The notes under the pieces: model-generated
Seen by the model: only the letters and a program-made list of their open reading frames with translations
Told to the model about the DNA's origin: nothing
The model's database searches: none
Shown: positions 1-63,624 of the stretch, piece by piece
How the letters are laid out: each line of letters begins with the position of its first letter
Numbering within the stretch: the first letter of the stretch is position 1
Program-made: the position numbers and the translations under genes
Assembly: GCF_003987475.1 (NCBI RefSeq)
Contig: NZ_PIQH01000002.1
Location: 124,001-188,000 of the forward strand
Reading direction: 5' to 3'
Origin: Idiomarina tyrosinivorans
GTDB taxonomy: Bacteria; Pseudomonadota; Gammaproteobacteria; Enterobacterales; Alteromonadaceae
DNA: 64,000 nucleotides

Positions 1-2070
1 GCAATGACTTCTCTCGCTGGACGCTTGAATGGCGGTGACCATATCAACGAGAAAATCACTACTCCCGACGCCATTAAGCCCTCAGCAGCGTTGGACATGA
101 TGCCGAAATCTCAATTTGATGACTTCCGAGGGCTTCAACTTACCGGTTCCGAGAGCATGGTGGATAAGGTGAACGTCGGTAACATGCTCAGTAGTGCGGT
201 TAGTTCCTCCCAGGCATCGTCAGCCCAGGCAACACAGTCATTTGCATCCCAGCTTTCTAATTCGGTTTTCTCTGGGGCCTCTGCTGAACAAAGCTACGCT
301 CGTTTACAAGGGCTTGGGCAATCCCTTCGTGCATCTGACTCTTCACAGGCACAGGCGATTTACGGCCAAGCTCAGGATTACGCTCGGCAATATGGCTTGA
401 ACGAGAGTCATACAGATGCCATTGCAGGAGCCATCGGTATGCAGGCCAGTGCGAACGTCGATGCCGGGCAGGTTGCGGGAGCCCTGTTGGCTGGCCCTGC
501 TGGCATGGCAATAGCAAAGGCTGCACCTGTCGATGTAAAAGGAGGTATTTCCGGATCGGCAACTTCTACGTCCACTGATCAACGTCAGCAACTGACAGGT
601 GATATGGACCGGCTTGCCAAAAATGTCGGTTTCACTGATAGCGATTCAGCAGCTTTGACTAGGGATATAGCTCGTCAGGTCAATACGCAGAGTGGTCAGC
701 GCTTTACGAACTCTCTTGGAGAGGAGCAGCGTGAGCAGTTTTCTGAATCCGCGACCCAAGCCATAACAGCACAAAATACTTATCAGCGTCTCGCCAGCGC
801 TCAATCGAGCATTGGAACGACGAGTGCAATGGATATGAGAGCCCTAGCGGAGACAGTAACCAGCAGTCCTGAAGCTCATTCACAGCTAAGAGATGGGATG
901 CGGATGGCTTCACCCGAAACACGCCAACTTGCGGCTGAGAAATCCCAGTTTTATGAAGCGTTGGGAATGGATTCAGCAAGAGCAACCGCAGGTGGTCAGC
1001 TCTATGCGCTTCTTAACTCTGGTAAAGCATCGGAACAGGCTATTGCTGCCGAAACCATCGCAAGTGCTACGGGCAGCGCGACAACCGTGAAAGATTCCAA
1101 TGCACAGCAAGATCTTTTGGAAAGCTCTCCAGCGATAACGCATGGGATAGGTGCGCGAGAGCTTCAAGAACCCCAGAACATGTCGAACGAACAAAGAAAT
1201 CAGGCAAGGGCAGGCGTGCCTGGGGAGAGCGTAGTGCTTCAGCGTCATAACCAAAACCTAAGCCACGTAGAAGCGGCAGACTCTGAAAACAGAGACGACT
1301 ACCGGGGAGAGCGGCTCGGTGCTCTGAGAAGTCAAATTATGGCGTCTGAAGTCGAGCCATCTACCTCGGCGAGTATCTTCTCTACTACCGAGGGTATTGG
1401 CCGATTCTTCGACCAAGTAGTTGGTGGGGTTAGTGCTGGAGCAGGCGGTTTCTCGGATGATTTCGCAGGTTCGATGGAGCACCTAGCGGCCATGACTCCC
1501 CAAGAACGCGACCAGTTTATCGCTGATTCAAACCGTGGTGATCAGTACATCCAGGATGAGTACGGCGTAGCGGGTCATATCGCGACTGGAGCCGCAGACC
1601 TGGGGCGTTCGATTATCGGTGCCGGAGTCAGCGGATACACAGCGGCCAAAGAGTGGATTACTGGAGAAGGTGATTTGTCGGAAGCTGCTAAAGACATGTC
1701 CATTAGGGAACGTGGAATGTTCTTTGCGGCAGCGTTTGCCAGTGCATCGGAGGAAGGTGCGGAGCACGCACAGCGTTTTGTTGAGCAATACGGTGACGAG
1801 TTCCGTGAGCTGGCAGCCCAAACGGCTGTTAATGAGCATGGCCTTCAGTCTGAAGCCGGTGCGCAACTGTTTGCGTCGTCGCTACTGGGAGCAAGTGACG
1901 GGCGTGAAGCTGAATACAGGCAGCAACTTCAAAGTGAGTTCGGCGGTGACGCCGATCTGGCAAACAAAGCAGCAGACATTATTGAGGCTTCTGCGGGTGC
2001 CGGGCGCGAGCAGGCCGGGGGTTATCTGATGCCAGTAAGCCGCTATATGGCTGTACAGAATGGAGAGTAA
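1..2070 (+). CDS. traG: TraG-like mating-pair/entry-exclusion protein, C-terminal part (5' truncated by window)
   Basis: The reading frame is open through base 1; an ATG at position 4 has no visible ribosome site and is probably internal. The 689 visible residues are rich in Ala, Ser, Gln and Glu, largely helical and without obvious membrane segments, as expected for the periplasmic/cytoplasmic C-terminal region of F-type TraG, whose N-terminal membrane part would lie upstream. TraG stabilises mating pairs and interacts with the exclusion protein of recipients. In SGI1 a TraG homologue replaces that of the helper plasmid to escape entry exclusion. It is followed after 11 bases by a small gene with its own ribosome site. 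Identification rests on position in the SGI1-like order plus composition. Confidence 0.65.
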   Translation, partial: AMTSLAGRLNGGDHINEKITTPDAIKPSAALDMMPKSQFDDFRGLQLTGSESMVDKVNVGNMLSSAVSSSQASSAQATQSFASQLSNSVFSGASAEQSYARLQGLGQSLRASDSSQAQAIYGQAQDYARQYGLNESHTDAIAGAIGMQASANVDAGQVAGALLAGPAGMAIAKAAPVDVKGGISGSATSTSTDQRQQLTGDMDRLAKNVGFTDSDSAALTRDIARQVNTQSGQRFTNSLGEEQREQFSESATQAITAQNTYQRLASAQSSIGTTSAMDMRALAETVTSSPEAHSQLRDGMRMASPETRQLAAEKSQFYEALGMDSARATAGGQLYALLNSGKASEQAIAAETIASATGSATTVKDSNAQQDLLESSPAITHGIGARELQEPQNMSNEQRNQARAGVPGESVVLQRHNQNLSHVEAADSENRDDYRGERLGALRSQIMASEVEPSTSASIFSTTEGIGRFFDQVVGGVSAGAGGFSDDFAGSMEHLAAMTPQERDQFIADSNRGDQYIQDEYGVAGHIATGAADLGRSIIGAGVSGYTAAKEWITGEGDLSEAAKDMSIRERGMFFAAAFASASEEGAEHAQRFVEQYGDEFRELAAQTAVNEHGLQSEAGAQLFASSLLGASDGREAEYRQQLQSEFGGDADLANKAADIIEASAGAGREQAGGYLMPVSRYMAVQNGE

Positions 2071-2081
2071 AGGAGCGTTTC

Positions 2082-2369
2082 ATGAAAAGAGAAGCTGTGG
2101 CAGTGATTGATAAGATTATTGGACACGCGGAAGCGGGCGAATTCATGGCACCCTGCGGGGAAAAGATGAGGATGCGAATATACGCTCATAGAGAAAATAT
2201 GCGCTCGATCATTCTGACTAATGCTCTGCTTGAAAAGCTGGCGAAGAAAGCGGGTGTAAGGGCGTTCGAAATGAAGATCGCAGCTCTAAGCGTTCGGTTA
2301 CCAATCGGGCGGAGATATGACACTAGGCGATTAGCGGGAAAAGGGATTGAAATTTTGTTAACTCGATAA
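2082..2369 (+). CDS. small basic protein of unknown function
   Basis: I do not recognise this 95-residue protein. It is basic (many Arg and Lys), has no signal peptide or membrane segment, and starts with ATG eight bases after a good Shine-Dalgarno sequence (AAAGGAG). It lies 11 bases after the traG stop and is probably co-transcribed with it. A strong hairpin (2378-2403) follows directly, so it is likely the last gene of the traG transcript. SGI1 also carries small hypothetical genes between its activator genes and traG, so position is compatible, but no function can be inferred. Confidence 0.6.
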   Translation: MKREAVAVIDKIIGHAEAGEFMAPCGEKMRMRIYAHRENMRSIILTNALLEKLAKKAGVRAFEMKIAALSVRLPIGRRYDTRRLAGKGIEILLTR

Positions 2370-2377
2370 CGTACCTT

Positions 2378-2410
2378 AGAGAGCTGGTTTCATCCAGCTC
2401 TCTTCTATTG
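2378..2410. terminator. 10-bp stem hairpin between convergent genes
   Basis: AGAGAGCTGG (2378-2387) pairs perfectly with CCAGCTCTCT (2394-2403) around a six-base loop. It sits between the plus-strand small gene ending at 2369 and the minus-strand gene ending at 2405. The following T-run is weak (TTCTATT), so termination efficiency is uncertain. Confidence 0.55.
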
Positions 2411-2680
2411 GCCTGTCCAAGGTTGACCGTCCCATTTTTCAAATTGCGATCCTGAACCATCTGGCGATGTGAACGGAATCCTGTCTATTTGGCTGTCATC
2501 CCAAACTGACGAACGATCCTGCTGTGATGAATGTACGTTGCAACCTGATTGTGCGTTCCTTCTGCTAACAGTAAAGCTCAAAATTAACGCGAGCGGAATG
2601 AGCGATAATATCAAGCCGCCGATGCCAGCAAGTTTGTAACTAACGAACAAAGTTGAAAGGACGAAGATTAATAGTTTCAT
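2405..2680 (-). CDS. small membrane protein, unknown
   Basis: This 91-residue frame begins MKLLIFVLSTLFVS and has two closely spaced hydrophobic stretches (about residues 3-18 and 21-38) followed by a polar tail of about 50 residues rich in Ser, Asp and Gln. That layout is typical of a small inner-membrane protein with a soluble C-terminus. The ribosome site is weak (AGG upstream of the ATG). It is the only minus-strand gene between traG and the activator operon and shares the hairpin at 2378-2403 as an end. Coding status is supported by the hydrophobic/polar layout and not by homology; function unknown. Confidence 0.45.
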   Translation of the reverse strand: MKLLIFVLSTLFVSYKLAGIGGLILSLIPLALILSFTVSRRNAQSGCNVHSSQQDRSSVWDDSQIDRIPFTSPDGSGSQFEKWDGQPWTGQ

Positions 2681-2778
2681 AGCCTATTTTCCGATGAAAA
2701 TTACCCTAACTTAAATCCTACCCCTGTTCTCTATAAATGCAAGTCGCTCAATATTCTGTTCAAATAACCATAAAATGA

Positions 2779-2798
2779 TACTGTAAAAAAACACAGTA
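2779..2798. promoter_or_regulatory. LexA (SOS) box upstream of the activator operon
   Basis: The sequence TACTGT-N8-ACAGTA, with N8 being AAAAAAAC, matches the gammaproteobacterial LexA consensus (CTGT-N8-ACAG flanked by TA/TA) in all defined positions. It lies 80 bp before the 57-residue membrane protein gene that leads the FlhD/FlhC-type operon. A candidate -35 (TTGCAT, 2806-2811) with an AT-rich -10 region (about 2828-2837) begins eight bases downstream. The sequence match is direct; repression by host LexA is inferred. Confidence 0.7.
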
Positions 2799-2877
2799 AA
2801 ACCCCTTGCATATCCGGGATCTCGTGGTATTTATATTGATATGTTTTGCAATGCTTTGCTTTGATTGAGGAGTAGTT

Positions 2878-3051
2878 ATGTTTGCTGAAAAATGTCTTTG
2901 GTTTGTGCTTGTAGGGTTCATTTACTTTGTTATAGGACAGTTGCTGACTTCAGGTGATTTAGCCTATTTTGCACTGTCTGTTGCCGGTGGGGTTGCACTT
3001 ACTCTGTATCTGCCAACGTCTTACAAGAAGCGATTCGCAGAGGAGGCGTAG
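2878..3051 (+). CDS. 57-residue membrane protein leading the sgaDC operon
   Basis: The short frame starts with ATG eight bases after TGAGGAG and encodes 57 residues: MFAEKCLWFVLVGFIYFVIGQ, a short polar turn, a second hydrophobic segment, then a basic tail (YKKRFAEEA). Two transmembrane helices are likely (about residues 7-23 and 29-46). Its last codons (GAGGAGGCG) double as the ribosome site of the FlhD-type gene, which starts two bases after its stop, so the genes are translationally linked. I do not recognise the family. A role in the activator circuit is suggested only by the coupling. Confidence 0.6.
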   Translation: MFAEKCLWFVLVGFIYFVIGQLLTSGDLAYFALSVAGGVALTLYLPTSYKKRFAEEA

Positions 3052-3053
3052 CA

Positions 3054-3677
3054 ATGTCACCTCTACTTTCAATGTCCGATCTGGATAACCAGGCTGCTCA
3101 GATTACTGAGCAGCGCCCAGACCAAAATGTGTTTGAGTTGGATCTCACCCTTTGGAACCTGCTGGCAACTCTCTGCCGCCATGCTCCGAGTGTGGCCAGA
3201 GAACAGTTTTCACTACCACAAAGTACGGTTGTGGCCTTAGCTGTCACGCCATCTCACGAATTGTCCAAGTTGAGTTCAGGCGTAGTTTTAAGCTTTCAGT
3301 TACACACGCCGGAACCGGACGTATGTGATTTCCTGTCCGCTGAATACGAACGTGCTATTCCACCTGGTTTCGCAGGAATGGAGGGTGTGGAGCGAGAGTT
3401 TGACGTGACGTACTGGCTGACACTTAGAAACTTGGCCCGCCGAGACGCTCCAATGGCCGCAACCGCATTTGGTGTCAGCCAGTCACTGGCGAAGGCTGTG
3501 GCCGAGGCCACTGACAATCAAATCCGTCAGTTGGTGACGGAGATCTGTACAGCCTGCACCCTAAGATTTGACCCACAGGTTGTCGAGGGCCTGTTGCCTT
3601 CAGCAGACCTTCGGAAACGCAGACAGGGGTTCTTCATCAAGTATCAGCAGTGCCTGTCGGTAGGAGGTAACGTATGA
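3054..3677 (+). CDS. sgaD: FlhD-family transcription activator subunit (SgaD/AcaD-like), internally duplicated
   Basis: The 207-residue protein has two similar segments: residues 27-81 and 116-172, each with the pattern D-hydrophobic-T-x-W-x2-L-x2-L-x-R followed by AP, F and QS. FlhD itself is about 116 residues and dimeric, so this chain looks like a tandem FlhD. It forms a translational unit with the next gene (ATGA overlap at 3674-3677). In SGI1 and IncC plasmids, FlhD/FlhC-type pairs (SgaDC, AcaDC) are master activators of transfer and excision genes; this pair probably binds the three boxes at 4317, 7261 and 8901. Family assignment rests on the partner FlhC, gene order and the fold-like pattern. 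Confidence 0.7.
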   Translation: MSPLLSMSDLDNQAAQITEQRPDQNVFELDLTLWNLLATLCRHAPSVAREQFSLPQSTVVALAVTPSHELSKLSSGVVLSFQLHTPEPDVCDFLSAEYERAIPPGFAGMEGVEREFDVTYWLTLRNLARRDAPMAATAFGVSQSLAKAVAEATDNQIRQLVTEICTACTLRFDPQVVEGLLPSADLRKRRQGFFIKYQQCLSVGGNV

Positions 3678-4261
3678 ATACCCGTAACAATCCGTTGCAC
3701 CTGTGGGTTCATGCACGTGAGATGGCGTTAATGGGTTATGTAACCCGCATAATCATTCTGGAAACTGGGTTGACCGATAAACAGGTGCGCAGGATTTACC
3801 GAGATCTGGAAGACGATGGGATGGATGTCAGCAAAAACAGAGCTTCCAACGCTATCAAAAGTGGTGCTTCTTTGGTAACGAATCAGCTTTCCAAACTCCA
3901 TGCTTCGCTTCTGATGGGGTTCTATCGACAGATAGGTGGAAGGCCCGTTGAATCCTCGACCTGCATTGCGGCGCTGAATCGCGCATATCGGATGTATCGT
4001 GCAGCCATCGCGGAGATTGCCCCTGTCAGCTCACCGATGGGCAAGGAGGCATTTCAGATGTTCACAATTTCGGATGCCTGGTGCTTAGCGTCGGAGATGC
4101 GGTCTGGGGACGCGATGTTTGAGCATTGCTGCGACTGCGGGTGTGAATTTTTCACCTCTGTGAATCAGGCGACGGGAATACACTGCCCGCACTGTTTTCA
4201 TCCTCAGAATGCGAAGGGTGCGGCGATGCCAGCGGTTGAAGTCTTCGCTGAGCCAGCTTGA
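3674..4261 (+). CDS. sgaC: FlhC-family transcription activator subunit (SgaC/AcaC-like)
   Basis: The 195-residue protein has an N-terminal helical region with an HTH-like stretch (RIIILETGLTDKQVRRIYRDL, about residues 25-45), typical of FlhC, and a C-terminal zinc site formed by C152-x2-C155 and C171-x2-C174, spaced as in FlhC. With the FlhD-type partner it should form the DNA-binding complex that activates element genes. The start overlaps the preceding stop (ATGA), ensuring coupled synthesis. A 16-bp palindrome (4277-4292) and an activator box (4317) follow directly, so the operon may end here and traN be separately promoted. Confidence 0.8.
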   Translation: MNTRNNPLHLWVHAREMALMGYVTRIIILETGLTDKQVRRIYRDLEDDGMDVSKNRASNAIKSGASLVTNQLSKLHASLLMGFYRQIGGRPVESSTCIAALNRAYRMYRAAIAEIAPVSSPMGKEAFQMFTISDAWCLASEMRSGDAMFEHCCDCGCEFFTSVNQATGIHCPHCFHPQNAKGAAMPAVEVFAEPA

Positions 4262-4276
4262 GCTACCTTTGAAAAA

Positions 4277-4292
4277 CTTTCACATGTGAAAG
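4277..4292. promoter_or_regulatory. 16-bp perfect palindrome before traN
   Basis: CTTTCACATGTGAAAG is a perfect palindrome between the sgaC stop (4261) and the activator box at 4317. It has no T-run, so it is more likely an operator than a terminator. The protein that would bind it is unknown. Confidence 0.4.
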
Positions 4293-4316
4293 AAAATTTG
4301 GCCAATTTAACGTTAT

Positions 4317-4335
4317 GCGCCCAAAACGGTAAATT
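4317..4335 (+). promoter_or_regulatory. Putative FlhDC-type (SgaCD/AcaCD) activator box before traN
   Basis: GCGCCCAAAACGGTAAATT begins 84 bp before the traN start codon. It shares GCGCCCAAAAYGGTAAA with the box at 7261 and CGCCCAAAAYGG with the one at 8902. AcaCD/SgaCD of IncC plasmids and SGI1 are known to activate the corresponding promoters (traN, rep, xis). Activator binding here is inferred from repetition and position. Confidence 0.65.
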
Positions 4336-4400
4336 ACACATCCGCTGGGAGCGCCGGATGCTCGATATGATCTCTCGAAAAGATTTTCGGAGAGGTCATT

Positions 4401-7232
4401 ATGCGAAATTCACCAGGCTTGATGAGAGCCATTGCCTACCTTTTAACTGTCACCACGACTCTGATGCCCCTTCACGGCGTGGCTCAAGAGTCACCTGAAG
4501 TTGATAGCCAGGACTTTTTAAGTCAGCTCGGTCGCGAAGGCCAGAATCTGGGTATGGAGCTTGGTAACGAAGCCAAAAACACTCCAGCCAAGGTCCAGAA
4601 CGGGCAAATCACCATCCCCACCATGGACGAAAACGGTAACCTGCAATACCAAGGGGGAACTCAGTTCAGCGTTCAAAGCCTGTACCCAGGCAGCAACCCT
4701 TCCAATGCCTCGGTGCAGAACGAATATTTCTCTGATGGCGTAGCCCCTGACCTCGACCAGCTCCAGGGGATCTATGACTCGGAAGAGGGGATGGGCGAAA
4801 CCGGTAGCGAGGCAAAGGACTCCCTCTGGGAAGATGCCTACAGCGACACCCCCTCTATCTCAGGTGCGGCGTATAAAGTTCTGGTGGACTCCTCAAATCA
4901 AAGTCGCCCGGATTTCAGTTCCGACCCGATGTTGGGGCTCACCAACGCCACATACGAAAACATTGATGTGATCGCTGAGGGCTTTGGTGACTGTTCCGCC
5001 GAAACAACCTTCGATGAAATCACCATGTCGGTACATAACCCGGAGTACGAAACCTGCGACCGTGTGACCGACAAAAGCGCCACCTGCGAGGTCATTCACG
5101 ACTATGAAGCGGCAGTGGTCAAGCACCATGACGGTCCATACAACATTTCACCATGCGATGGTGCTGGCGGTGGGTGTTCTGACGTGTGGATTGGTAAGGT
5201 GGGAGACAACTACTGGAGTGGTAGCTGCTCGATTTACGAAGAATTCACGGAAATCAAAGTCGTCAATCCTGCTGCCATTACTCAGGCTACGTTGATACGT
5301 GCCAAGTGGGATGACTACATGCAGATATGGATTGGTGAGCCTGGCGAAGAAGTAAAGGTATGGTCTGGTCCCAATAACAATTTTCCTCCCGAGACAGCCG
5401 GTAAGTGTGAGCTGAGTACAAGCTGGGACCAAAATCCTAACCTCGACCTGACCAGTTACTTCCGAAACGCGCCGGAAGACTCGGTGATTCGCTTCAAAAT
5501 TCGCGTATCCGTCTCCGGCGAGGGTGAAGGCTTCGGGAAGATCCGCATTAAGTACGACCCCTCCAAAGCCATCATCAAAGATGAATGGTCACCAGATAGC
5601 TGCATCGAATCTGCGACTGGCGTGGTGGATGGTTTTGCAGAGGGGAGCCTGACTTGCGTGGACGACCCGCGTGACGCGGAAGGCTGCACCTATACGAATG
5701 GCATCAAAATCTGCGAGGACAGCCTGAAGCCTTCTCCCATTCCTGGTATCCCCAACCTTTGCAAGAAAGTCGCCGTAGATGCGGACTTCGATTTCTACAA
5801 AGGGGATATGGAGTGCTACACCGATGTCAACGGTGAGGAGCAGTGCCCGGTCAACGAAGGCGGGAATCTAAATACGTGCCAGCAGTACGAAGAAAACCCG
5901 CAGTGCGGCTTTATAAGCTCGGAGTGTGTTGATGGTGCTCAGGGTAACTCCGGTGTGTGTTACGTCAAAGAGGAGACGTGGGACTGCGGGAGTAGTGTGG
6001 ACATCGACACCATAGAGAAAAAAACCGAATACCAGTGTGGTGGAGCTATCCGCTGCATGGGGGACGACTGCCTAGACCCGACACAATCCACCGACCAGAC
6101 CGCGAACTTTGCCAAAGCCTCGGCTTTGCTCAATGCGGCGCAGTTCATGACCCAGGATATGAGCTGCACCGGCCAAGATGACGATGGCAACGCAACCGGT
6201 GAAGAGAACGTGACCTGTACTGCGTTCGGGGGCGAGGCTGGCGAATGCAAGATTGCAGTCGGCGGAGTGTCGGACTGCTGTGAGAAACCCTCTAACGTGA
6301 GCATGGCTGATTACCTGATGATGATTCGTCAGGTTCCGAAGCTTGATGGTGCGGTATTGGCGCTTGAAGACACCAACGTCATCAAAAGCTCGTACCAAAC
6401 CCTTCGTGATCCAGTTATGAATGCTTGGACGGAGGTATCTCAGCCGTTCACAAATTACATGGATAACATCTCTGGTGCTGTTGAGGAGATATGGTCGCCC
6501 ATCGAGGAACTGAAGAACCAGCTCATAGAAAAGCTGAAGGAGCAGGCTAAAGGTATGTTGCAGGACGTGATGGGTAATTTGGCCCAGGATGGCGCGACCG
6601 AGGCGGCAGCCACTGCTACAGCAGATAGAGCGGCTGAGGAGGCAATGACGGAAATGGCGAACCAAGCCGCTTCTATGCTGGGTGCGGCGATGACGGTCTA
6701 CACGGTGTACGTGGTCGCTGTGGCCGTAATTCAAATGGTCTACGCCTGTGAGCAGGAAGAGCTGGAGATGAACACCAAGCGGGCAACGGATAGCTGCACC
6801 TACGTTGGCTCCTACTGTAAGGAAGAGGTTCTTGGGGCCTGTATCGAGAAGCGTAAAGCGTACTGCTGCTTCAATTCACCGCTGTCTCGAATCATCCAGG
6901 AACAGGTTCGGCCTCAGTTTGGTCAGGACTTCGGAACTCCTAAGAATCCGAGTTGTGGAGGTATTCCCTTTGAGCAAATCGCTCAAATCAATTGGGATGA
7001 GGTAAATCTCGATGAGTGGCTGGCTATTCTTCAGCAGAACGGTCAGTTCCCCAGTGGAGCCAATTTATCTATGGATGCCCTCACAGGTTCTGGCAGCGTC
7101 TTCAATGTTGATGGGGACCGTTTGCCTGCTGATCAGCGTGCAATGGATCGCGTTGATGACATAGACGTGGACGCAAAGCGTCGGGAGGCAATGGACAAAA
7201 TAGAAGTGAATCCGGGCGGTCCGGGAAGCTAA
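4401..7232 (+). CDS. traN: TraN-like mating-pair stabilisation protein
   Basis: The 943-residue protein begins with a signal peptide (MRNSPGLMRAIAYLLTV, cleavage likely after VAQ at about residue 29) and is very cysteine-rich, with dozens of Cys in short spacings across residues about 190-640 and again about 770-880, as in the disulfide-stabilised outer-membrane adhesin TraN. TraN of the donor contacts recipient outer-membrane receptors during conjugation. Length fits TraN of SGI1/IncC. The start follows GGAGAGG by five bases. An activator box lies 84 bp upstream. A hydrophobic stretch (about residues 755-780) separates a coiled Ala/Glu-rich segment from the last Cys cluster. SGI1 TraN is thought to change recipient range of the helper's transfer machine. 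Confidence 0.8.
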   Translation: MRNSPGLMRAIAYLLTVTTTLMPLHGVAQESPEVDSQDFLSQLGREGQNLGMELGNEAKNTPAKVQNGQITIPTMDENGNLQYQGGTQFSVQSLYPGSNPSNASVQNEYFSDGVAPDLDQLQGIYDSEEGMGETGSEAKDSLWEDAYSDTPSISGAAYKVLVDSSNQSRPDFSSDPMLGLTNATYENIDVIAEGFGDCSAETTFDEITMSVHNPEYETCDRVTDKSATCEVIHDYEAAVVKHHDGPYNISPCDGAGGGCSDVWIGKVGDNYWSGSCSIYEEFTEIKVVNPAAITQATLIRAKWDDYMQIWIGEPGEEVKVWSGPNNNFPPETAGKCELSTSWDQNPNLDLTSYFRNAPEDSVIRFKIRVSVSGEGEGFGKIRIKYDPSKAIIKDEWSPDSCIESATGVVDGFAEGSLTCVDDPRDAEGCTYTNGIKICEDSLKPSPIPGIPNLCKKVAVDADFDFYKGDMECYTDVNGEEQCPVNEGGNLNTCQQYEENPQCGFISSECVDGAQGNSGVCYVKEETWDCGSSVDIDTIEKKTEYQCGGAIRCMGDDCLDPTQSTDQTANFAKASALLNAAQFMTQDMSCTGQDDDGNATGEENVTCTAFGGEAGECKIAVGGVSDCCEKPSNVSMADYLMMIRQVPKLDGAVLALEDTNVIKSSYQTLRDPVMNAWTEVSQPFTNYMDNISGAVEEIWSPIEELKNQLIEKLKEQAKGMLQDVMGNLAQDGATEAAATATADRAAEEAMTEMANQAASMLGAAMTVYTVYVVAVAVIQMVYACEQEELEMNTKRATDSCTYVGSYCKEEVLGACIEKRKAYCCFNSPLSRIIQEQVRPQFGQDFGTPKNPSCGGIPFEQIAQINWDEVNLDEWLAILQQNGQFPSGANLSMDALTGSGSVFNVDGDRLPADQRAMDRVDDIDVDAKRREAMDKIEVNPGGPGS

Positions 7233-7260
7233 CGATAAAAATACTGAAAAACTGCCTTAT

Positions 7261-7279
7261 GCGCCCAAAATGGTAAAAA
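7261..7279 (+). promoter_or_regulatory. Putative FlhDC-type activator box before the alpA-rep operon
   Basis: GCGCCCAAAATGGTAAAAA begins 87 bp before the start codon of the small HTH gene. It differs from the traN box at only a few positions. In SGI1 the rep-containing operon is one of the AcaCD-activated units. Confidence 0.65.
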
Positions 7280-7313
7280 GCGCGTTCTTCGGTCAAAGGT
7301 AGTTAAACCGAAA

Positions 7314-7342
7314 ATAGCTCCTAGAGAAATCGAAGGAGCTAT
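7314..7342 (+). promoter_or_regulatory. Shine-Dalgarno-sequestering hairpin in the alpA-rep leader
   Basis: ATAGCTCCT (7314-7322) pairs perfectly with AGGAGCTAT (7334-7342) around an 11-base loop. The right arm contains the ribosome site AGGAG that serves the ATG at 7348. A second inverted repeat, TTCGGT/ACCGAA (7288-7293/7307-7312), lies just upstream. The pairing would hide the ribosome site, suggesting translational control of rep; this is inferred from sequence only. Confidence 0.55.
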
Positions 7343-7347
7343 TGTTT

Positions 7348-7569
7348 ATGAAATCCCAAAAGAAAGATCGAGGGGCTGGCGTTGAGTCAGACGTGCTTTT
7401 AACGGTACGTGATGTCCAACAACTTTTACGCATTTCCAATCCGACGCTGAGCCGCATTCGGGCAGATAAGAACGCTGATTTTCCAAAACCCATTGCCGTA
7501 ACCACAAAAGCGGTCCGCTGGAAGCGCGCCGACGTAGAGGATTGGCTTGAGCGTCGGAAGGTGGATTGA
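7348..7569 (+). CDS. AlpA/excisionase-type HTH regulator, coupled to rep
   Basis: The 73-residue protein is a single MerR-like/AlpA winged helix: VRDVQQLLRIS-NPTLSRIRAD, a proline-rich wing (FPKPIAV), RWKRADVEDWLERRK. Such proteins act as small activators or recombination directionality factors in prophages and islands. The start ATG at 7348 sits nine bases after AAGGAG; a TTG six bases earlier is too close to that site. Its stop overlaps the start of rep by one base (TGATG), so rep is translationally coupled. It takes the place of SGI1 S004 upstream of rep; whether it controls replication or excision cannot be told from sequence. Confidence 0.75.
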   Translation: MKSQKKDRGAGVESDVLLTVRDVQQLLRISNPTLSRIRADKNADFPKPIAVTTKAVRWKRADVEDWLERRKVD

Positions 7570-8405
7570 TGGGAGGCAAGCCGTTTACTGCCTACCATCA
7601 AAGTCTTATTGAGCAGGCAGAAAATCAAGAGCTGAACCCTGAAACATGGTTCATGCCGCAATTGTTTTGCCAACTTAGCCCATTACCGGCGGCCAATACT
7701 GATAAAAACCTTTTTCAGCGCACCAATGGCAATGTCAAAGTATCGGTATTGTCCAGCGAGCGTGTTCCCGCAGGGGGCCTGGTAAGGCTTTTGTTGGCAT
7801 GGTTAACCACACAAGCCAAGCGACAGAGGAGTCCTGAGCTAGCGATTGATACAAGCCAAAGCCAGTTCCTGAAAAGTCTTGGACTAAGCAATAGTGGTCG
7901 ATATGCAGCTCTACTGCGCGAACAGGTCAATCGTTTGGCTCGCTCTACATTTCAGATAGAGAGAGTGGTTGGAAACGGGGTAGAAATTGAGAATATTCTT
8001 GTATCCCGTAAGGCGCTTATCTCAATGCGCCATGGCAAAAATTCAAGCTGGTCATCAACAATCAGCCTGGATGAAGAGTTCTACCAAAGCATTTTGAGCA
8101 ATGCTGTGCCAGTTTCCGCCCACGCGATCAAAGCTTTGACTAAAAACCCGCTCGCCATCGATTTCTACTGTTGGTGGAATTGGCGAGTCCACTCGATGTC
8201 GCGCAGAAGGCAGATTGAAATCCCGCTTGATGCCCTGAAGCTTCAGTTCAGCAGTGAAACGAAGGAGCGGAGAGACTTCCGTCGAAAGCTGGAAAATGCC
8301 GCTATATTAGCGTCTATTTTCCATCATGAGATTTTCAACAGCACGCTTTTTCAAAGCGATAAACTGATAATTACCAAGACGAACCCTCATATCGCCCCTA
8401 AGTGA
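7569..8405 (+). CDS. rep: RepA-type plasmid replication initiator
   Basis: The 278-residue protein resembles the plasmid RepA (RPA) family: a pattern of winged-helix-like segments, LRLLLAWLTTQA, the conserved VPVSAHAIKALTKNPLAIDFYCWWNWR region (about residues 177-203) and a basic C-terminus. Initiators of this family bind iterons; four 18-bp iterons with DnaA boxes lie 170-300 bp downstream (8573-8705). SGI1 likewise encodes Rep and replicates extrachromosomally when a helper is present. The start overlaps the preceding stop (TGATG); a TTG one codon earlier is less likely. Its expression is probably raised by the box at 7261 and limited by the leader hairpin. Confidence 0.75.
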   Translation: MGGKPFTAYHQSLIEQAENQELNPETWFMPQLFCQLSPLPAANTDKNLFQRTNGNVKVSVLSSERVPAGGLVRLLLAWLTTQAKRQRSPELAIDTSQSQFLKSLGLSNSGRYAALLREQVNRLARSTFQIERVVGNGVEIENILVSRKALISMRHGKNSSWSSTISLDEEFYQSILSNAVPVSAHAIKALTKNPLAIDFYCWWNWRVHSMSRRRQIEIPLDALKLQFSSETKERRDFRRKLENAAILASIFHHEIFNSTLFQSDKLIITKTNPHIAPK

Positions 8406-8540
8406 AAAAGCCTCGGGGCGAATCCTTCTTTGTTCGCATCTCCTCATTCAAAGCCCTATCTCGTCTACTTCGATTACGGTAATTATGATAATTACAGCCC
8501 CTACGGGCGGTATTCTGGTTGAGTCGAATTCGCTCCCATG

Positions 8541-8830
8541 GTGGATAACCCTGTTTATAACCAATGTTATCCACGTCACTAGCGCCACGCAGTAGCCAAG
8601 CCTGTGAAATCAAGGGCTCCGGCGAGTTTTGGCAAGTTATCCACGACACTAGCGCCACGCCAGTCACGTCACTAGCGCCACGCCTGTACGACACTAGCGC
8701 CACGCCTATAATTGATTTTTTAACAATAAACCAATGAATCTAAAGGAAAAATCGTTGCATTGGACAGTCTGCAAGTAGTTCTTTCAAGTAGTTTTAAACA
8801 AATAATAAATTACAATTATTGGTGACAGGG
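8541..8830. other. Iteron-type replication origin (oriV) of the element
   Basis: The 586-base gap 8406-8991 has no convincing gene. It holds three DnaA-box-like nonamers (TTATCCACC on the minus strand at 8540-8548; TTATCCACG at 8567-8575 and 8637-8645), four 18-bp iterons (8573-8705) and then an AT-rich stretch (8706-8830) suited to unwinding. DnaA boxes, iterons and AT-rich DNA next to a RepA-type gene are the parts of a theta-type iteron origin. Confidence 0.75.
8573..8705 (+). repeat. Four 18-bp iterons
   Basis: ACGWCACTAGCGCCACGC occurs at 8573-8590, 8643-8660, 8666-8683 and 8688-8705, all in one orientation and differing only at W (T, A, T, A). Start-to-start distances are 70, 23 and 22 bp; 22 bp is two helical turns, as usual for initiator binding sites. 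Two DnaA boxes abut iterons 1 and 2. Confidence 0.85.
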
Positions 8831-8900
8831 GAAATGTGGACAGTTAGTCGGTCGGACTGACGTAGGCACTTTCCAGAAAATTTTCTCAATTCCGCTCAAA

Positions 8901-8919
8901 CCGCCCAAAATGGGCAAAA
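8901..8919 (+). promoter_or_regulatory. Putative FlhDC-type activator box before xis
   Basis: CCGCCCAAAATGGGCAAAA begins 91 bp before the xis start codon. It shares the CGCCCAAAAYGG core with the boxes at 4317 and 7261 and is the most symmetric of the three (GCCC-N4-GGGC). A 12-bp palindrome, AGAAAATTTTCT, lies at 8875-8886. Activation of xis by the activator pair would link excision to transfer-gene expression. Confidence 0.65.
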
Positions 8920-8991
8920 GCAGACCCGTCGTTTCGCACCTCTCTCCTTCATCATAAACCCATCAAAGCGAATCAAAGACAATGTGGGTGA

Positions 8992-9369
8992 ATGATGTCT
9001 GAAACAGAACAGTTATCGTGCGTGATGAATGAATTGGCAGAAATCAAAAAAATCTTGGCTGATTTCGTTTCGGGAACAGCGTCGAACGACACCAGTAACG
9101 TGAACCTCCCTCCTTCTGGAAAGGAGTATCTTACTGTCGATGAGGCGGCAGCTTTGATCGGTTCAAAGCGGAGCTATATCTACAAGCTGACTCATGAGAA
9201 GCGAATCAGCTTTACAAAGCCGGGGGGGAATCGTGTATTGATTAAACGCTCGGACCTTTTGGATTGGGTTGAGGCCAACCGCATCAAATCTCAGAAGGAT
9301 GTGCAGAACGACGTTGAGGAGTTTATGAAGAACTCTCGCCGTCCTGGACGTAAAGCGCCTAAGCGATAG
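8992..9369 (+). CDS. xis: Excisionase-like HTH protein (Xis)
   Basis: The 125-residue protein has an acidic helical N-terminus (residues 1-40) and a MerR/excisionase-type helix-turn-helix with wing (residues about 45-98: YLTVDEAAALIGSKRSYIYK, then GGNRVLIKRSDLLDWVE), ending in a basic tail. It is convergent with and overlaps the integrase 3' end by 11 bases, the arrangement of int and xis in SGI1. Xis would bend DNA at the att sites and favour excision. Two adjacent ATG codons (8992, 8995) are possible starts; the ribosome site is weak. The activator box at 8901 suggests induction together with traN and rep. Confidence 0.75.
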   Translation: MMSETEQLSCVMNELAEIKKILADFVSGTASNDTSNVNLPPSGKEYLTVDEAAALIGSKRSYIYKLTHEKRISFTKPGGNRVLIKRSDLLDWVEANRIKSQKDVQNDVEEFMKNSRRPGRKAPKR

Positions 9370-10579
9370 CCATGGGGACTGCCTGCCCGCAATGGGAGCA
9401 TCTGTTATTCTCACTTTCACGCTCTTTGAATATGTCTGGAAAGCTTCTCATGGCCGTTACTCGACGGCTTTCGAGAATATCAGCATAGTCTTCAGTTGTT
9501 CTCAGCTCTGAGTGTCCAAGGAGCCGAGAAAGAGAATAAATATCAACACCACGGTTAAGTTGGGCTACGGCGAATGTATGTCTCCCGACGTGAAACGTGA
9601 CATGCTTTGTTATTCCAGCTCTCATTGCCCACTTCTCTAAAGCCACATTAAAGTAGCTGTTGTATTTTAGGCCGACGAACACTCTGTCTTCTGGTTCGCC
9701 CTTTCGATCTATATCCAACAGCTTTACAGCCGAATCTGGAAGGTCCAGATATACAAGGGATTTTCCACCGTTCTTAAGCTTTTTCTGGTCAAAAATGATT
9801 CGATAGTGGCCAGGCTCAAACTCTTCGATTTCACTCCATGTGAGTTTATTGATGTCACTCCACCGGAGACCGGTAGTGCAACTGAACAAAAAAGCCCGCT
9901 TCAGGACATCGTAGCGACATTCCGCTTTTGTCAACGCTCGAACCTCATCCAGTGAGAGGTAGGTTCGCTTAGTGTTCTCTGGCTTGACACTTTTCACTCG
10001 TTGAACCGGATTATCCCTGATGATGCCCTCTCGATATGCTTCATTCAGAGCAGCTCGGATCTTATTGAAGTAGCTCGATGCAGTATTTTTGGCAAGCTTG
10101 GTTTTCGATTTGGTGAGCTTCTCCTCCAGTAGGTACTTCCGTAAGCCTTCAAGAAACTGCTTATCAATCTCCTCAAAGGTGAGTTCAGCTCTGCCGTGGT
10201 AGTTTCTGAGGTGCTTACCTGCCGAGATCCAGATTGAATAATTAGATGCGCTTCCGGATTCTTTGGTCGAGGTTAATTGGTCGTAGTAGTCGAAGAAGCT
10301 TGAGGCCAGTTTCACGCGGTCTTCAAGCTGGAATTTATTGGCATGTGCTTCAACGAGACGTGCAGACCTCGCAGCTTCTGCCTGACGCATCATCTCCTTG
10401 TTGTGCTGCCGCTCAGCCTGGGTCTTGGGGTTGTGATACACGTACAGCTCAAGAGGCTCGTAATCCCGCTTAGGCCGCTTTTTTCCGTCCTCCCCTTCGA
10501 CCACACCGTAGTAGTACACCAGGCGAAGCTGCTGTAGCCCCTTCGAGTTGGGGTTCCGCTTGTTAACAGATACCTTCAT
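9359..10579 (-). CDS. int: Tyrosine-family integrase of the element
   Basis: The 406-residue recombinase has an N-terminal arm-binding region, a SAM-like core-binding domain (about residues 90-195) and a catalytic domain with the expected residues: Arg in TTGLRWSDI (about 239), H-x2-R in HVGRHTF (about 336-342), His in LLGHSEL and the Tyr nucleophile in TTEDYADI (about 373). SGI1 Int has nearly the same length. The gene points away from the attachment core in mnmE, with its start 204 bp from it. A Cys pair (CSHC) near the C-terminus follows the catalytic domain. Its Shine-Dalgarno (GGAG) is part of a repeated GGAGCAAA motif that recurs upstream. Confidence 0.92.
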   Translation of the reverse strand: MKVSVNKRNPNSKGLQQLRLVYYYGVVEGEDGKKRPKRDYEPLELYVYHNPKTQAERQHNKEMMRQAEAARSARLVEAHANKFQLEDRVKLASSFFDYYDQLTSTKESGSASNYSIWISAGKHLRNYHGRAELTFEEIDKQFLEGLRKYLLEEKLTKSKTKLAKNTASSYFNKIRAALNEAYREGIIRDNPVQRVKSVKPENTKRTYLSLDEVRALTKAECRYDVLKRAFLFSCTTGLRWSDINKLTWSEIEEFEPGHYRIIFDQKKLKNGGKSLVYLDLPDSAVKLLDIDRKGEPEDRVFVGLKYNSYFNVALEKWAMRAGITKHVTFHVGRHTFAVAQLNRGVDIYSLSRLLGHSELRTTEDYADILESRRVTAMRSFPDIFKERESENNRCSHCGQAVPMAIA

Positions 10580-10580
10580 G

Positions 10581-10661
10581 TTTGCTCCAATTTTGATCCC
10601 ATTGCTCCCGAATTCTAACCTTGGAGCAAATCGGGATCAATTTATAGTGAAACGGAGCAAA
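10581..10661. repeat. GGAGCAA repeats overlapping the int leader
   Basis: GGAGCAAA or GGAGCAAT occurs on the minus strand at 10581-10588 and 10601-10608, and GGAGCAAA on the plus strand at 10623-10630 and 10654-10661. GATCCC (10595-10600) and GGGATC (10633-10638) add a second inverted pair. The first copy is the integrase ribosome site. These may be integrase/excisionase arm sites or an operator for int. Confidence 0.5.
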
Positions 10662-10782
10662 TTAGAAGAAAACGCGGGAAAAAGGTTTTTGAGGTAAAAG
10701 CGAATATTGTCCTTAGAAAACAATAAGTTATTTTGATATGTTTTGATAGGTTTCACGGGGCTTTACCACTTCAGAATGAGGT

Positions 10783-10800
10783 TCACTTCCCGATACAAAA
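10783..10800 (-). other. Attachment core at the mnmE 3' end (element-chromosome junction)
   Basis: Read on the minus strand the last codons of mnmE are TTTTGTATCGGGAAGTGA. This corresponds to the 18-bp direct repeat at the ends of SGI1 (of TTCTGTATTGGGAAGTAA type, from memory). The mnmE C-terminus FCIGK is intact. The second copy expected at the other end is outside the window. Tandem 10-mers TTTTGATATG/TTTTGATAGG lie at 10731-10750. Confidence 0.7.
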
Positions 10801-12153
10801 GCTGGAGAAGATTTTTCCGAGAAGATCGTCTGAGGTGAATTCGCCAGTAATTTCGTTGAGGTGTTGCTGAGTGAGTCGTAGCTCCTCGGCAAGAATTTCG
10901 CCGGCAATATGTTGCTGCAATTGTGCTTGGCCAATCACTAAATGGCTATGCGCTTTTTTAAGTGCTTCCAAGTGGCGTCGGCGCGCCATGAATTGTCCTT
11001 CCGACGTACTGTGGTAACCCACGCAATGCTTAAGATGTTCCCTTAACAACTCTATTCCATGGCCGGTTTTTGCCGATAGCTGAATCACCGGAACCTCATC
11101 TTCATAGTGAAGTTCAGTAGGCTCATGAGTTAAATCCACTTTATTACGGATAACCGTAAATGGCATGTCTTCGGGCAAGCGAGCGAAGAACTCTGGCCAT
11201 ATCTGCTGCGGGTGGGTGGCTGCGGTTTCATTCGCATCAACCATAAACAACACTCGATCTGCCTGTTCGATTTCTTCCCAGGCACGTTGAATACCAATTT
11301 GCTCAACTTCGTCGGGACTTTCGCGCAAGCCGGCGGTATCGATAATGTGTAGCGGCATGCCATCTATTTGAATGTGCTCACGCAATACATCGCGCGTTGT
11401 TCCCGCGATAGCGGTTACAATGGCAGATTCTCGTCCTGCGAGAGCATTGAGCAGGCTGCTTTTGCCGGCGTTAGGGCGACCGGCAATAACAATGCGCATG
11501 CCTTCACGCATCAACTGGCCTTGGCGGGCTTCGTTCTCTATTGCGCGAATTTGGTCGATAATCGCATCAAGATCAGTCGCAACTTTGCCATCACTGAGGA
11601 AATCAATTTCTTCATCGGGGAAATCGATAGCGGCTTCAACGTACATGCGCAGTTGGATAACCGCATCAACCAGTTGGTCGACCTTGTAGGAGAACTCACC
11701 TTTAAGGCTTTGTAATGCCGCTCGAGCCGCTTGCTCCGAGGTGGTATCAATGAGGTCAGCAATGGCCTCGGCTTGGGTTAAATCAAGCTTATCGTTAAGG
11801 AACGCGCGCTCGCTGAATTCGCCGGGGCGAGCAGGGCGTACGTTGGGAATATCCAAAGCTGCCTTAATGATCATGTCGATGAGCACGGGACCGCCATGCC
11901 CCTGAAGCTCAAGTACATCTTCTCCGGTGAAGGAATTCGGTCCAGGAAAATATAACGCAATGCCTTCATCAAGCAGGCGTTGCTGAGCATCGTAGAACGG
12001 CAAATATTCCGCATAACGCGGTTTAGGACAATGGCCGAGTAATGCCTCGGCCACGGTTTTTGCATCAGGACCGCTTACTCGAACAATACCGACACCGCCA
12101 CGCCCAGGGGGCGTGGCTTGTGCGACAATCGTATCGTTGGTAAAGCTGTCCAT
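10783..12153 (-). CDS. mnmE: tRNA uridine-5-carboxymethylaminomethyl modification GTPase MnmE
   Basis: The 456-residue protein has the full MnmE layout: N-terminal folate-binding domain, helical domain and an inserted GTPase with GRPNAGKS (about residue 225), the TTRD switch, DTAG and NKVD, ending in the invariant FCIGK whose Cys is essential. With MnmG it modifies the wobble uridine of several tRNAs. It is six bases after yidC in the rpmH-rnpA-yidD-yidC-mnmE operon. The mobile element has inserted exactly at its stop codon while restoring the C-terminal codons, so the protein should be functional. mnmG is not next to it, as usual in this group. Confidence 0.97.

Positions 12154-63547: not shown

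Positions 63548-63624
<77 letters not shown>

Follow-up and report, generated by a model that had tools for sequence, protein, structure and literature searches.

What kind of element occupies the 3′ end of mnmE in Idiomarina tyrosinivorans, and what has accumulated beyond it at the same site? The window analysed here is the whole stretch of 64,000 nucleotides at C12:124001-188000 of genome G000 (2,426,240 bases, 21 contigs), C12 being contig NZ_PIQH01000002.1; positions without prefix are those of the window. Two stretches to its left were also read, L002 (C12:86001-105000) and L003 (C12:105001-124000). The original prediction, made from the letters alone, had recognized in positions 1-10800 a mobilizable island of the type of Salmonella genomic island 1 (SGI1). 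We are highly confident that this start of the window represents one half of a 33.7-kb integrative mobilizable element of the SGI1 family, the half with the genes for recombination, replication and mating pairs; the element is very probably SGI1-RE6 ItCC-PW-9, already described in I. tyrosinivorans CC-PW-9 and assigned to cluster 6 (Siebor & Neuwirth 2022, PMC9035990). The island is therefore not new, and it is a resistance island. Statements on this and the other papers cited refer to the parts of them that were available.

The target gene mnmE (trmE; 10783..12153, minus strand) has near-full-length matches in 58 of the 59 family genomes compared, the present one included, while the 59th (G029, 81% complete) gives only a weak match (best E 1.3e-11). 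The 18-bp attachment (att)-like core that had been predicted is the 3′ end of mnmE itself: attL (10783..10800, minus strand) comprises the last codons and the stop (FCIGK*). A second copy, to be sought upstream according to the prediction, is found as attR at C12:101106-101123, in the same orientation and with 2 mismatches. The island with both cores measures 33,695 bp (C12:101106 to 134800), and its missing part, expected left of the window, was recovered with mpsA/mpsB and cargo in the 38 kb leftward. Such integration at the mnmE/trmE 3′ end with 18-bp att repeats is that of the SGI1 family.

The backbone genes announced by the prediction are all present. Read from right to left, they start next to the mnmE stop with the tyrosine recombinase gene int (9359..10579, minus strand; PF00589 1.5e-19, Arm-DNA-bind_5) and a convergent gene for an excisionase-type DNA-binding protein (xis, 8992..9369, plus strand; TIGR01764 (excise) 9.3e-17), a pair confirmed by profiles and coordinates. 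Four 25-nucleotide direct repeats 3′ of rep (iterons, 8566..8705, plus strand) form a candidate replication origin (oriV), in the same position as that of SGI1 (PMC7433901). The replication initiator gene rep (7566..8405, plus strand; RepA_C 2e-15) comes next, preceded by an AlpA/HTH_17 gene (7342..7569, plus strand; HTH_17 1.9e-7, AlpA 9.1e-6) in the position of SGI1 S004, which likewise has an HTH_17 domain (PMC7433901). Further left are traN (4401..7232, plus strand; NCBIfam NF011458, 1343 bits), an FlhC-type (sgaC-like) regulator gene (3674..4261, plus strand; PF05280 1.1e-8) and an FlhD-type (sgaD-like) one (3054..3677, plus strand), the latter with a weak profile match (PF05247 3.2e-5, below the curated Pfam cut-off). 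Two putative small open reading frames (ORFs) of 91 (2405..2680, minus strand) and 95 amino acids (2082..2369, plus strand) separate these regulators from the C-terminal part of a traG-like gene (1..2070, plus strand; TraG_N 2.3e-92), which encodes in full 1137 amino acids and starts at C12:122657, 1344 bp left of the window. The family markers xis, S004-like gene, rep and iteron origin are thus present in the family order, and so is the set traN, traG and sgaC/sgaD, with the reservation made for FlhD.

Leftward from traG, the island continues with a 312-aa ORF (minus strand), a 117-aa ORF, mpsB (92 aa, L003:14144-14422), mpsA (336 aa, tyrosine-recombinase type, L003:13130-14140; Integrase_1 8.2e-11), a small ORF and a 421-aa ORF. 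Farther left are genes for a BsuBI/PstI-type endonuclease, an N6-type methylase and a resolvase (res), then an integron and an ORF for an AAA ATPase whose end is beside attR. The mobilization pair is identified by comparison with L084, a 20-kb Salmonella record, and not with SGI1 itself: MpsA is 80% and MpsB 84% identical there, the small ORF beside mpsA has a 53% identical counterpart at the same place, and the two mps genes stand in the same order together with traG (49%), traN (63% over residues 367-934), AlpA (40%) and rep (27% over residues 29-214). This record carries no gene names in its own annotation and is typed as non-mobilizable in PLSDB; we read it as an SGI1-type segment because of its gene order. 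The candidate origin of transfer (oriT) region is a GC-rich stretch around L003:12701-12925 (0.60-0.63 in two 125-base windows). As judged from these sequences, the SGI1-family hallmarks that were looked for are present, oriT and the AcaCD binding sites as candidates only, whereas traH, a gene that not all family members have, was not found.

Kinship places the island more precisely. Int is 100% identical at the amino-acid level to that of Pseudohongiella nitratireducens SCS-49 and of Marinobacter lutaoensis T5054, two taxa of SGI1-RE6 cluster 6, which assigns it to the SGI1 family; T5054 is named in the available parts of PMC9035990, SCS-49 is not among the strains named there. Pseudohongiella also has an identical Xis; the matches listed in this comparison of island proteins cover more than 30% of the query. 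In the M. lutaoensis locus (L020), 11.4 kb of this island half have a DNA identity of 98.8%, a sign of recent movement between genera: Rep is 100% identical, the FlhD-type regulator 99.5%, TraG 98% (residues 236-1137) and both small ORFs 98%, at the same places, the 91-aa one having also a 38% identical counterpart at this place in Rheinheimera nanhaiensis (L016). TraN shows about 61% amino-acid identity over its full length to TraN of eight plasmids listed, among which pKHM-1 was checked and is typed IncC; the FlhC-type protein shares 50.5% over 94% with five listed plasmid matches annotated as FlhC family transcriptional regulator, and int matches 363 plasmid records, every one below 60% identity. 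As to E. coli genomes, a near-identity search with the 10.8-kb window part gave no match, nor did a search with the mob region, and a distant search with a 3.5-kb query matched 1 of 5426, by int only (25% of the query, 67%). That int belongs to a different island at the mnmE end of E. coli 1585m1 (L051, NZ_CP086391.1 4451985-4492863), whose contents include type I restriction-modification and a MobI(A/C) gene; some 20 kb away is another FCIGK* core. Membership of the SGI1 family, in a host that is almost certainly from the Alteromonadales and outside the enterobacteria, is supported as predicted.

The prediction of an environmental family member held for the family, but this member is not free of resistance genes. 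The island carries an 8.5-kb Tn402-like class 1 integron with sul1, aadA and cmlA types (sul1-, aadA-, MFS-, intI1- and TniB-type genes by Pfam). Its Tn402 ends IRt and IRi are exact matches at C12:103671 and 112104-112128, both flanked by CATTT, and from one end it is 71 bp to the start codon of res, which lies downstream; the same spacing is reported for In104 in SGI1 (PMC12217951). The stretch L003:1-7129 matches at least 5000 plasmid records, with 98.5-99.8% identity in the 15 matches listed, so that the island cannot be called resistance-free; the features under the plasmid match include sul1, cmlA-type, intI1 and TniB. An Rfam scan of L002, L003 and L004 returned the integron leader/attI family only. 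A sister island, in genome G272, has the same integron flanks, 96% identical, which adjoin without an integron: in L079 the left flank ends at 3269 and the right one starts at 3265 (flanks searched apart), the 5-bp overlap being expected from the target duplication.

These features coincide with the published ones. In SGI1-RE6 ItCC-PW-9, cmlA1 and aadA2 are carried by a Tn402-like integron, the duplication is AAATG, the complement of our CATTT, and traH is missing (PMC9035990); mnmE site, gene order, BsuBI/PstI endonuclease with N6 methylase and AAA-ATPase end are common as well. The GC content is 49.5% in window positions 12001-64000 and 49.25% in the I. tyrosinivorans CC-PW-9 genome (PMC6193092). 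Alternatively, the genome could belong to a sibling strain or species with a near-identical, separately acquired and unpublished copy of SGI1-RE6. That M. lutaoensis holds backbone genes 98-100% identical speaks for such copies, yet integron content, 5-bp duplication, AAA-ATPase end and absence of traH all agree with the published element, and we hold a separate copy to be very unlikely. With SGI1 of Salmonella, compared by description, the published element found here shares the site, the architecture, mpsAB, the iteron rep and the integron 71 bp upstream of res (PMC6414798, PMC7433901, PMC12217951). It differs from it by the lack of traH and by other cargo, and cluster 6 int has only 71-76% nucleotide identity to int of SGI1/PGI1/PGI2 (PMC9035990).

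How would the island work? Gene content, att sites, integron duplication and kinship are direct observations; each step of the following scheme, IncC mobilization included, is drawn from homology with SGI1-family experiments. Int would insert a circular form into the mnmE tail and leave the protein unbroken. An AcaCD-type activator from a helper plasmid, perhaps together with the FlhC/FlhD-type pair of the island, would turn on traG, xis and the AlpA-rep operon, after which the island would excise and replicate from the iteron origin. MpsA/MpsB would process it at oriT, and transfer would proceed via the secretion channel of the helper, reshaped by TraN and TraG of the island. The Tn402-like integron would have landed beside the resolvase gene, making it a resistance island. 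The likeness of TraN to that of the plasmids listed speaks for this scheme, and candidate activator sites agree with it: an AcaCD-like site, GCCCAAAATGGGC, stands at 8903..8925 (plus strand), 89 bp upstream of xis, the same 13-mer is present 83 bp upstream of traG, and a degenerate site (approximately 7264..7290, plus strand) precedes the AlpA/S004-like gene by 78 bp.

Several observations weigh against the assignment and its proposed working. With the search pattern used, no AcaCD-like site was found within 350 bp of traN. In the island the strict AcaCD palindrome is seen twice; 100 simulated sequences had 0.51 on average and at most 3, and numbers by themselves thus prove little. The short published core CCSMAAWW is so frequent, with 28 occurrences on one strand of 102 kb and 38 on the other, that by itself it is weak evidence. 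An oriT is assigned, without exact limits, solely from position, GC content and a DNA identity of 70% to the Salmonella record. The traH gene that the prediction expected upstream was not found: the largest ORFs between mpsB and traG are those of 117 (plus strand) and 312 amino acids (minus strand), neither with a Pfam match, and the published element lacks traH as well. Finally, the 421-aa ORF looks SIR2-like here, whereas the available parts of PMC9035990 name a radical SAM maturase at that place.

Could the island then be an SGI1-type remnant that is defective and immobile? Neither a traH nor, in its own genome, a TraC-type conjugation ATPase was found (the same search for F-type TraC was positive in 9 of 14 control genomes, only 1 above cut-off); with no TraC found, a helper would need to be supplied externally. 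Moreover, the integron has the same 71-bp spacing from res as In104 of SGI1, whose insertion is held to inactivate resolution (PMC12217951). On the other hand, int, xis, rep, traN, traG, mpsA and mpsB are all open with no internal stops, and the near-identical Marinobacter backbone together with the identical Pseudohongiella Int and Xis point to recent movement. The lack of a resident helper is what is expected of a mobilizable element, and we count it against a remnant. We consider an immobile remnant unlikely and retain a mobilizable SGI1-RE6.

The island is not alone at its site. Beyond attR, two further FCIGK* sites in the same orientation, at C12:99823 and 96961, delimit two short segments. 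Segment A (2.9 kb, C12:96961-99840, L002:10961-13840) contains merR, merT, a gene for a merP-like HMA protein and merA; its nearest plasmid match, in a Methylophaga plasmid, is 78.5% identical over 59% of the query. Readings of segment A other than mercury were dropped, its recognisable genes being these four. Segment B (1.3 kb, C12:99823-101123, L002:13823-15123) carries a higB/higA pair. Next to its inner core stands an integrase remnant of 35 residues, with 80% identity (E 4e-14) to the mnmE-island integrase of G028, the only genome of the same genus among the 59 compared. Because of this remnant, segment B is most likely a decayed island. A search for integrase in segment A gave no piece above chance (best E 0.13).

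Are these extra att copies old insertion boundaries, or chance matches and mnmE-like coincidences? The outermost core and attL have 5 mismatches in 18 positions, and a related IUPAC pattern with up to 3 mismatches is unspecific, with 12 genome matches versus 6 for its control. By contrast, a search of all 2.43 Mb with the degenerate pattern TTYTGYATHGGNAARTRA yields 4 occurrences, each encoding FCIGK* on the mnmE strand and all within 38 kb, while its reversed control gives 0. Furthermore, the outermost core ends in nine bases, GGCAAATAA, that equal the mnmE tail of the family relative G026, where no such int lies nearby (within 19.9 kb beyond mnmE, no match covers more than 25% of an island protein), and segment B holds the integrase remnant resembling that of the G028 mnmE island. 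Chance is thus an extremely improbable source of these copies. In a sample of 295 genomes from the order, at least one copy of the mnmE tail was found in 236, three copies in two (G066 and G202) and four in the present genome only, positions being those among the matches listed.

Taking the cores as insertion boundaries, the distal site would be expected to derive its last nine bases from the host gene, following the published att logic (PMC9035990). The simplest order of arrival is then segment A with the mercury operon, segment B with higBA and finally SGI1-RE6, although insertion between older segments may have produced another order. Segments A and B are probably older than the island, B most likely being left over from an element that had arrived here before. 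The array suggests serial accretion at a single mnmE site, and it is modestly new. The available parts of the SGI1-RE6 paper make no mention of the two extra att-bounded segments: in its main text higB, merA and remnant occur 0 times and mercury once, in a reference title (PMC9035990). Tandem genomic islands at trmE in V. cholerae 555448 and N2775 and P. mirabilis JN40 are likewise stacked at one mnmE att site, but their second element has 17-24 kb and its own integrase, against 1.3 and 2.9 kb and no intact integrase here (PMC9035990).

Is such loss of integrase peculiar to this genome? An Int with E of 1e-80 or better exists in 7 of the 295 genomes (G239, G206, G067, G093, G272, G177 and this one), of which G206 shows an internal stop and G093 matches in two pieces. 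Beside the core, only an N-terminal piece was matched in G066 (37 residues) and G110 (70-96 residues; the stretch fetched excludes its second core), where the remainder may be lost or merely divergent. A 6.4-kb att-bounded mnmE segment in G297 (L073, G297:C13:29300-38800) carries higBA-like and hipA-type genes. Compared with eight such integrases it gave no match, and it is apparently an independent case of an integrase-less segment. From these integrase-less or broken cases, integrase decay at mnmE looks ordinary.

Two cargo ORFs of the island point elsewhere. The 421-aa ORF (L003:10849-12114) has SIR2-type defence matches (PADLOC 3.3e-11; NCBIfam far below cut-off) and no Pfam match at 0.01, and the AAA ATPase ORF beside attR (L002:15216-17417) matches the candidate defence family PDC-S46 (1.4e-242). 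With the AAA ATPase and the restriction-modification pair, the distal half of the island looks like a defence block. A tRNA-Arg (ccg) at 63548-63624 is the sole tRNA gene in the window by ARAGORN.

The island fits the published picture of SGI1-type vehicles in circulation among marine bacteria: here a marine island carries a clinical-type integron, and a sister island with the same flanks has none. The small segments raise a further possibility. Cis-mobilizable elements (CIMEs) are att-bounded elements without integrase. Segments A and B have this structure, two flanking att sites and no integrase, B keeping its 35-residue remnant, and like CIMEs they stand beside a complete element. We tentatively suppose, as a possible though rather doubtful reading, that the mnmE tail is a stacking site and that the SGI1-RE6 integrase can still act on the att sites of the mer and higBA segments, which would make these two cis-mobilizable cassettes. 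The new point would be that such segments move in trans. If true, the island could pick up or carry off neighbouring segments, and SGI1-type elements would have an additional route to collect metal-resistance and addiction genes.

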